From Pseudomonadota bacterium (lineage in GTDB: Bacteria; Pseudomonadota; Alphaproteobacteria; Sphingomonadales; Sphingomonadaceae): DNA of 64,000 nucleotides. Shown here piece after piece: positions 7,955 to 42,864 of this stretch. Under the pieces are notes generated by a model. The model searched no databases. It was not told the DNA's origin and saw only the letters and a list, made by a program, of their open reading frames with translations. Both the position numbers and the translations under genes were made by a program. The DNA is taken from positions 124,001-188,000 of the forward strand of contig JAIUPN010000003.1 of NCBI GenBank assembly GCA_020160755.1, read 5' to 3'. The stretch's first letter is position 1. Every line of letters starts with the position of its first letter.

Positions 7955-8416
7955 ATGACCGCGACCCGCAGCGACGTGCCGCTCGCCGATTTCCGCGTGC
8001 AGGAACGCGTCCGCGTTCGCTTCAACGAGATCGACGGCCAGAATATCGTCTTCAACGCCAATTATCTCGTTTACGCGGATATTGGCGTCACAGAATATTT
8101 CCGCGCACTCGGCGAAGGGCAGCCCGGACCCTATTTTCACCAATATGGTACAGATATTCGTGAGACGCATTGCGAGATCGACTATCATGCGCCGGCGCGG
8201 CTCGATGAACTGATCACGATCGCGGCGCGGGTCAGCGCTTTCGGCCGGACGAGCTTCACGCTTCATTGCGGGATTTTTCGTGGAAATGAGCGGTTGACCG
8301 ACATCGAGATCAGCTATGCGCATATCGACAGCGATAGCGGACAGCCTACGTCGTTGCCCGGAAGCTTCATCGCCGAGGTGCGGCGATTCGAAACGCGAAT
8401 CCCGGTGCAAGACTGA
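7955..8416 (+). CDS. Hot-dog fold acyl-CoA thioesterase (4HBT type)
   Basis: This 153-residue single hot-dog protein has the signature RVRFNEIDGQNIVFNANYLV (residues 23-42), corresponding to the 4HBT pattern in which Asp-x-x-x-hydrophobic-x-x-Asn-Tyr contributes the catalytic acid. Family members hydrolyse short acyl- or hydroxybenzoyl-CoA thioesters. I start at the ATG at 7955, 5 bp after the peptidase stop. A longer reading from 7790 runs inside pepP and is a shadow. It is probably co-transcribed with pepP, but no functional link is evident. Confidence 0.8.
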   Translation: MTATRSDVPLADFRVQERVRVRFNEIDGQNIVFNANYLVYADIGVTEYFRALGEGQPGPYFHQYGTDIRETHCEIDYHAPARLDELITIAARVSAFGRTSFTLHCGIFRGNERLTDIEISYAHIDSDSGQPTSLPGSFIAEVRRFETRIPVQD

Positions 8417-8488
8417 TTCGCCGGCTCCTGATTCGAACCGGATCGTATTTCTCGACCAAAAAAGTCAGGTTTTGAGCCGGAAAAGGCC

Positions 8489-8516
8489 AAAAAAAAGGGC
8501 CACCCGAAGGTGGCCC
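8489..8516 (-). terminator. Rho-independent terminator, minus strand
   Basis: A perfect 8-bp stem (GGGCCACC at 8497-8504 and GGTGGCCC at 8509-8516) has a 4-nt loop. On the minus strand it is followed by eight T residues (A-run at 8489-8496). On the plus strand no T-run follows, so it does not serve the thioesterase gene. Confidence 0.85.
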
Positions 8517-8550
8517 GTGAAAGTTTTGGGAGAGGATGCCTAAAAGGCAA
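8489..8550 (-). ncRNA. Candidate small RNA (~60 nt)
   Basis: Reading the minus strand there is a sigma-70-like promoter, then a predicted start near 8550. A short hairpin follows (TGCC, loop TTTTA, GGCA; 8549-8537), then an unpaired pyrimidine-rich stretch ATCCTCTCCC that could pair with a Shine-Dalgarno, then a perfect terminator hairpin with an eight-T tail. No plausible reading frame ends at this terminator. The layout (5-prime hairpin, anti-SD-like single strand, intrinsic terminator) is typical of trans-acting bacterial sRNAs. The call is inferred from structure; no homologue was checked. Confidence 0.5.
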
Positions 8551-8555
8551 GTGTG

Positions 8556-8583
8556 ATATTGCAGTGCACAATGAATGTTGCAA
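8556..8583 (-). promoter_or_regulatory. Candidate sigma-70 promoter of the small RNA
   Basis: On the minus strand TTGCAA (8583-8578) is followed after 16 bp by CAATAT (8561-8556). This places the start close to 8550, exactly at the first hairpin of the candidate sRNA. Confidence 0.4.
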
Positions 8584-8603
8584 CTGCGAAAAGAGCATCT
8601 GCT

Positions 8604-8620
8604 ATTGCATTTTTTGCAAT
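8604..8620. repeat. ATTGCA inverted repeat
   Basis: ATTGCA (8604-8609) and TGCAAT (8615-8620) flank five T residues. It lies upstream of the candidate sRNA promoter, among further TTGCA/TGCA elements at 8559-8587. It could be a binding site for a regulator of that transcript. Confidence 0.35.
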
Positions 8621-8709
8621 CTATAGCGCTATCCGCGACCGTTCGGCGCAATCGTCCATGCGCTTCACTGCCCCTCGCAAATCGCCGTGACTTCGCCTAA
8701 ATTGCGCTG

Positions 8710-9177
8710 ATGGGAATGTTCAACAAGATGGATGTCGGCGGCGGCCTGTCCGATTTCTGGGCCTATGTCCGCGAACCCCGCCCGCATCGCTGGGCGATCT
8801 GGGGTGTCGCGCTGGCGCTGACCTGGCTGATTTTCACGGGGGTCGAGAAATATCTGATCCCCTATGAAAAGCCGAAAGAGCAGATCATCTATTTCGAAAA
8901 CTGGACCGCGAACCGCAGCGCCGCCGAAATTCGCGCCGACTGGGTTGCACGCGCCAGGGAAACGACGTTGCACAACGCCCAGAAGCGCGCCGAATATCAG
9001 CGCTTCGCCGACAGCCTCGGCATCGAATATGATTCGGCCGAAGCCGACAAGGTAACGCGCGAGACGCTGGGCGAAGAAGCCGCGGCCGCGGCGAAGAAAA
9101 AGCCCGAGCCGGTGCAGATCCGCTCGACCCTCGCCGAGCGCGCCGCGCGCAGCGCACAGCCCGAAGCGGCCGACTGA
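8710..9177 (+). CDS. Conserved hypothetical single-pass membrane protein
   Basis: This 155-residue protein has one membrane segment at about residues 28-45 (WAIWGVALALTWLIFTGV). A soluble, mostly helical charged C-terminal part follows and ends in an Ala/Lys/Pro-rich tail. I do not recognise a domain. A second ATG at 8716 is an alternative start. It lies 4 bp before ribD and may be its operon partner, though nothing links it to riboflavin. Confidence 0.65.
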   Translation: MGMFNKMDVGGGLSDFWAYVREPRPHRWAIWGVALALTWLIFTGVEKYLIPYEKPKEQIIYFENWTANRSAAEIRADWVARARETTLHNAQKRAEYQRFADSLGIEYDSAEADKVTRETLGEEAAAAAKKKPEPVQIRSTLAERAARSAQPEAAD

Positions 9178-42256: not shown

Positions 42257-42820
42257 TCAGATCTTGCCGACGAGTTCGATCGAGGGTGCGAGCGTTTCGG
42301 CGCCCTCTTCCCATTTCGCCGGGCAGACCTGACCCGGGTTGGCGCGGACATAGACCGCGGCCTTGATCTTGCGGACGAGTTCCTCGGCGTTGCGGCCGAC
42401 GCCTTCGCTGGTGATTTCCATCACCTGGATCACGCCGTCGGGATCGACGACGAAGGTCGCGCGGTCGGCAAGGCCCGAATCTTCGCGCAGCACGCCGAAG
42501 TTGTTGGCGAGGACGTGGTTCTGGTCGCCCAGCATGTGATAGTTGATCTTGCCGATCGCCGGCGAGCTGTCGTGCCATGCCTTGTGGCTGAAGTGCGTGT
42601 CGGTCGACACCGAATAGACTTCGACGCCGAGGCCCTGAAGCGCCTGATACTGGTCGGCGAGGTCTTCGAGCTCGGTCGGGCAGACGAAGGTGAAGTCGGC
42701 CGGATAGAAGAAGAAAACGCCCCACTTGCCCTTGGTGTCGGCGTCCGACACGGGGACGAACTTGCCCTGATGGTAGGAGGTGGCGTTGAACGGCTTGATC
42801 GAGCTTCCGATGATACCCAT
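42257..42820 (-). CDS. ahpC: Alkyl hydroperoxide reductase subunit C (peroxiredoxin)
   Basis: This 187-residue typical 2-Cys peroxiredoxin reduces peroxides. The peroxidatic Cys47 is in FVCPTE and the resolving Cys166 in VCPAKW. It is operonic with ahpF. The start at 42820 gives the canonical [11 protein letters not shown] and has AAAGGAA upstream. A TGCAAA inverted repeat lies 29 bp before the start. Confidence 0.96.
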
Positions 42821-42848
42821 GGGAGAGTGATTCCTTTGTTTGCTGCAC

Positions 42849-42864
42849 TGCAAAATGATTTGCA
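42849..42864. promoter_or_regulatory. TGCAAA-N4-TTTGCA inverted repeat upstream of ahpC
   Basis: TGCAAA (42849-42854) and TTTGCA (42859-42864) flank ATGA. The shape resembles alphaproteobacterial Fur/Mur-type palindromes. The distance to the ahpC start fits an operator, but the regulator is uncertain (a Fur-family protein or another peroxide regulator). Confidence 0.4.

Follow-up and report, generated by a model that had tools for sequence, protein, structure and literature searches.

In S. granuli TFA, SuhB has been shown experimentally to be a 61-nt, Hfq-dependent sRNA which binds the thnR 5' UTR, also in an Hfq-dependent manner, and blocks thnR translation during catabolite repression; its expression is higher at fast growth and in the presence of PHB granules, and the figure legend explains that the dotted lines of the regulatory scheme stand for unknown mechanisms (all from the part of the review PMC6563040 available to us). 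In Caulobacter, the alphaR8 sRNAs SisA-D repress mRNAs with Hfq through an anti-Shine-Dalgarno (anti-SD) 10-mer; the accessible portion of that paper names MmgR as the sole characterised alphaR8 member, and the word SuhB is absent from it (PMC12559287). MmgR, an sRNA of S. meliloti, is treated in the available sections of PMC8401924. Its gene is repressed by PhaR (AniA), which binds the mmgR promoter at a site tested by gel shift, and the set described for S. meliloti comprises a phasin, a depolymerase and the sRNA (PMC12542648, in the extracts consulted). Within the literature searched on PhaR together with SuhB or with Sphingopyxis, we found no statement of a PhaR-suhB link; the search did not extend to most subscription papers, among them that of 2018 on SuhB, so the link may already be in print.

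Identity and fold of the small RNA

The window, that is, the whole 64,000-nucleotide stretch of DNA that was analysed, belongs to the genus Sphingopyxis. A whole-window Rfam scan of these 64 kb yielded a single match, to RF00519 (suhB/MmgR), at positions 8482-8555 of the minus strand, covering the full model (1-77) and scoring 57.4 bits where the gathering threshold is 41. Rfam describes RF00519 (suhB) as 'Makes More Granules Regulator RNA', and the structural elements of the family, a 5' hairpin, a single-stranded pyrimidine stretch and a Rho-independent terminator, are all present. The initial annotation had proposed an sRNA of about 60 nt here, a length in keeping with the 61 nt of the orthologous TFA SuhB; from that length and the spacing to the -10 element, the transcript was placed at 8489-8549 (minus strand), with an inferred start at 8549.

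Folding of these 61 nt (8549 to 8489) gave -23.7 kcal/mol. The 5' hairpin UGCCUUUUAGGCA (8537-8549, minus strand) forms 5 bp, UGCCU/AGGCA, around a 3-nt loop, so that the hairpin noticed originally does fold but is one of 5 bp and not of 4 bp. It is followed by a 20-nt unpaired stretch which, in line with the original description of an unpaired pyrimidine tract, contains the putative anti-SD seed CCUCUCCC (8528-8535, minus strand), and then by the terminator, whose perfect 8-bp stem with its 4-nt loop (8497-8516, minus strand) and eight-T tail (8489-8496, minus strand), transcribed as eight U, were recovered in the fold and by the terminator call; the 8-bp stem and the eight T agree with the first description. 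The 74-nt Rfam match had a stability z-score of -4.5, and none of 200 shuffles was as stable.

The gene lies between that of a YbgC/FadM-type acyl-CoA thioesterase (7955-8416, plus strand; TIGR00051 above cut-off), which is convergent with the sRNA, and that of a 155-aa protein with no Pfam or NCBIfam family (8710-9177, plus strand), which is divergent from it. The gap, 8417-8709, holds no other convincing gene, and the minus-strand reading frames listed across it run through the terminator, none ending there; both points had been anticipated from the sequence. Because no minus-strand gene ends at the terminator, the T tract is 3' of the stem on the minus strand only and conservation runs on through promoter, hairpin and seed, it is very unlikely that the structure merely terminates a minus-strand protein transcript or serves the thioesterase gene alone, even if that gene does converge on the region. 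The number of terminators is by itself no better than chance (4 found against 5.5 expected in 8 kb); the reality of the sRNA rests on its conservation and on the Rfam match, by which the observation can be considered confirmed at the level of sequence.

Conservation and a variant seed in Sphingomonadaceae

RF00519 was found above cut-off in 57 of 60 near relatives and, in a sample of the family, in 120 of 149 genomes, the genome under study being included in both counts. This genome has one match above cut-off; the best of the others, at 28.6 bits against the cut-off of 41, was rejected as a second suhB copy. Elsewhere in the genus, a second match above cut-off, of 46-49 bits, does occur in a few genomes (G027:C50:187169-187243, G009:C326:4212-4289 and G012:C50:779-856). 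Among named genomes, the neighbouring 155-aa protein, used as a query independent of the RNA, retrieved 42 loci, chiefly of Sphingopyxis, and the sRNA was upstream of that gene in 42/42; these are close relatives, so this conservation is essentially that of one genus.

Together with loci from other genera, 93 loci were compared, the duplicates L132 (of L165) and L145 (of L163) having been dropped from the family counts. The 5' hairpin is part of the minimum free energy fold in 93/93 loci, CCUCUCC is fully unpaired in 92/93 and a simple-rule terminator is found in 92/93 (with 45 kinds of stem, a few being short and questionable), figures that are partly so by construction, since every locus apart from the window (92) fits an anchoring pattern which includes hairpin and seed and 50 of these loci were selected by RNA likeness. 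Both hairpins are conserved in relatives. In an alignment of 63 sequences (62 of the 66 distinct loci plus the window; L040, L071, L165 and L171 were left out), changes on both sides with pairing kept were seen at 7 of the 11 predicted pairs, and these 7 all belong to the terminator. The covariation check suggested originally was in this way positive for the terminator but gave nothing for the 5' hairpin and seed, which are almost invariant. In the locus L078, from a MAG, the terminator hairpin and its T tract seem to be duplicated in tandem just downstream of the sRNA. Given the Rfam match, the 42/42 synteny, the compensatory changes and the experiments on the ortholog, it is scarcely credible that a functionless hairpin and terminator arose here by chance, however frequent terminator-like sites are in shuffles of the region, and conservation already refutes that reading.

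The seed differs between families. All Sphingomonadaceae loci (92/92) match the pattern with UCCUCUCC, and the loci of other families carry the standard seed GUUUCCUCCCU in 13/13; the weak matches L002-L008 of the genome under study were excluded from this comparison of 17 genus loci and 13 other-family loci. The Sphingomonadaceae thus have a fixed variant of the seed, AUCCUCUCC(C/U)A. The exact 10-mer by which the Caulobacter paper defines alphaR8, UUUCCUCCCU, is absent from the window sRNA, which has AUCCUCUCCC instead, and for this reason we would file it as a seed-variant branch of RF00519 rather than a strict alphaR8 copy. The usual alphaR8 neighbour, an N-formylglutamate amidohydrolase gene (found in most species, not all), is also missing, the three FGase genes of the genome being on contigs C7 and C1 and none on the suhB contig, C3. 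An Hfq gene was found in the genome (L083/L084, G000:C1:409050-409484), and it seems to hold two Hfq domains within one 184-aa reading frame.

Sphingopyxis SuhB is a gene of about 61 nt conserved in its genus, which agrees with the one match above cut-off in this genome and the 42/42 syntenic loci. On account of the Rfam score above the curated threshold, the conservation in relatives, the synteny, the compensatory changes in the terminator and the TFA experiments, we hold it to be very probable that the locus is the Sphingopyxis SuhB sRNA gene (RF00519, related to MmgR/alphaR8), its general mechanism included. The sRNA is therefore real, but of an already known kind, and both this Rfam family and the operator-like sites upstream of it are absent from the initial annotation.

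The suhB promoter and its putative PhaR-type operator

The promoter consists of a -35 element, TTGCAA (8583-8578, minus strand), a spacer of 16 nt and a conserved -10 element, CAATAT (8561-8556, minus strand). The alphaproteobacterial form of the -10 element is CTATAT. Beside the -35 element is a block, TTTCGCAGTTGC (8580-8591), which is invariant in 43 rows and reads TTTCGCACTTGC in most other genera. The promoter-like pair reported at the outset resembles the sigma-70 consensus only weakly and escaped the scanner, but its core is kept in 43/43 Sphingopyxis-type rows, window included.

Overlapping the -10 element, we found the PhaR-type operator TCATTGTGCACTGCAATATCA (8554-8574, minus strand; core TGCACTGCA, 8560-8568), which shows the palindrome YGCRNYGCR with AT-rich arms that characterises the PhaR (AniA) regulon and shares 15 of 21 letters with PhaR sites tested by EMSA. 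As the loose YGCRNYGCR motif is frequent in such GC-rich loci (the 17 genus loci have between 0.11 and 0.38 occurrences per 80 nt), a matrix and tests at fixed positions were used. With a matrix made of seven S. meliloti PhaR sites, the mmgR site being omitted, 8554-8574 ranked first of the 63,980 positions of the window at 25.7 bits, compared with 23.3 for the runner-up at 42838, 13.9 for the third and peaks of 8.1-14.0 in ten shuffled windows. The runner-up site, 42838-42858, is just upstream of ahpC (42260-42820, minus strand). In 42/42 Sphingopyxis-type loci, the suhB promoter site was the best matrix position of the whole locus. Among the other Sphingomonadaceae it was the best in 18/50 loci, and in 22/50 the plain motif was present no more than 32 nt before the hairpin, against a shuffle mean of 0.2; it was missing from the remaining 28/50 and from 13/13 suhB loci of other families.

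In the genome under study, TTGTGCRNTGCA gave 11 matches against 0 in the reversed control. Three of them are at a phasin gene (two sites around its promoter), the only one found by Pfam Phasin_2; one is upstream of phaZ (TIGR01849, 545.6 bits against 300.75) and one at suhB, while the remaining 6 of 11 are near genes without an evident PHB tie or not identified. One of these six precedes a gene for malate synthase, and the PhaR-type pattern was likewise seen upstream of an ANTAR-domain response regulator (L126 1501-1512 and L125 1501-1512 for the two places). The phaR gene itself was found in this genome and in all 54 genomes searched, with or without the operator. We had predicted that phaR would be lacking more often where the operator is lacking; the second half of this prediction was wrong, and a comparison of presence and absence has no discriminating power. 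With phaR everywhere, having the regulator does not account for the loci where the motif is missing. A PhaR-suhB link is consequently not universal: the motif is absent from the 28 and 13 loci mentioned although all 54 tested genomes have phaR.

Another TGCA-binding protein could use the promoter site. A second inverted repeat, TTGCAAAAAATGCAA (TTGCR-N5-YGCAA; 8605-8619), is conserved across Sphingomonadaceae suhB promoters: by pattern it is kept in 42/42 Sphingopyxis and in 29/50 other loci, the pattern having fallen on a different stretch in at least two rows (L070, L074), and its strict form, TTGCA-N5-TGCAA, has only one other occurrence in the genome. It is possible, if rather doubtful, that the sRNA is SuhB but that a different regulator, perhaps the one using TTGCR-N5-YGCAA, binds the -10 palindrome and that PHB affects suhB indirectly, through growth rate. 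Along with the second repeat, the reported dependence of TFA suhB on growth rate (PMC6563040, in the part available) and the absence of the motif in many genera that have phaR would favour such an arrangement; against it stand the match of the palindrome to EMSA-tested PhaR sites and its recurrence, within this genome, at phaZ and the phasin gene.

We consider direct repression of suhB by PhaR somewhat the likelier arrangement in Sphingopyxis. PHB granules would then switch on an anti-SD RNA, and a trio of phasin, phaZ and sRNA under one operator would be shared with the mmgR system of Sinorhizobium across two alphaproteobacterial orders, with individual genera of Sphingomonadaceae having retained or lost the operator. 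As far as we found, the PhaR-suhB link is new; it is a well-supported and directly testable addition rather than a demonstrated one.

Putative circuit, candidate targets and comparison with known systems

In the circuit proposed here, PhaR bound across the -10 element would repress the suhB promoter. When PHB accumulates, its granules would titrate PhaR off this promoter and suhB would be transcribed, and the raised level of SuhB would shut down alternative uptake and catabolic functions. The unpaired CCUCUCCC would do so by base-pairing to ribosome binding sites of the GGGAGAGG type, so that mRNAs for transporters, receptors and catabolic functions are no longer translated. Action of the pyrimidine stretch in trans on ribosome binding sites had been proposed from the sequence and is supported by its agreement with the experiments on relatives, TFA SuhB and the Caulobacter alphaR8 RNAs.

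The pattern GGGAGAGG-N2..10-ATG had 29 matches in the genome; the reversed control had 1. Of the reading frames listed for these, 21 had at least 50 aa; two of them represent one place and were left out, and of the 19 scanned by Pfam, 15 had a match at E 0.001 or better, including three MFS transporters and one MFS fragment, two TonB receptors, an amidohydrolase, a dipeptidase and a gluconolactonase-like protein. This list agrees with the target classes of SisA, but such genes are common, so they are to be taken as no more than candidates. For the phasin, phaZ and ahpC leaders, pairing with SuhB was no better than for shuffles, and the phasin and phaZ leaders do not look like SuhB targets.

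While the sRNA itself is known, the control of its promoter is the part that we did not find in print. Should the operator be used as proposed, it would supply the link that has been missing from PHB storage to catabolite repression in sphingomonads, which are used for pollutant degradation, and SuhB, MmgR and SisA, sRNAs studied separately, would be joined in one carbon-status circuit.

Of the known systems, SuhB of S. granuli TFA (Garcia-Romero et al. 2018, as covered in the available part of PMC6563040) shares with the window sRNA the genus, the Rfam family name, the length of about 61 nt and the conservation in Sphingopyxis, together with an Hfq-bearing host and a PHB-related control of expression; the sequence comparison was made through a stand-in, S. 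granuli NBRC 100800 (L056), which differs from the window sRNA in the terminator and by one added A. MmgR of Sinorhizobium meliloti (RF00519/alphaR8) has in common with it the Rfam family, the hairpin, the pyrimidine stretch, the terminator and a PhaR-type promoter site, but the Rfam consensus seed is UUUcCUCCCU, as opposed to AUCCUCUCCC in the window, and 77 nt are reported for MmgR compared with the inferred 61. SisA-D of Caulobacter crescentus (alphaR8; sponge CrfA) resemble it in having an anti-SD seed after a weak 5' hairpin, in Hfq and in carbon-linked targets that include TonB receptors; they differ in the letters of the seed, and no conserved promoter motif is reported among sisA-D, in contrast to the promoter site described here.
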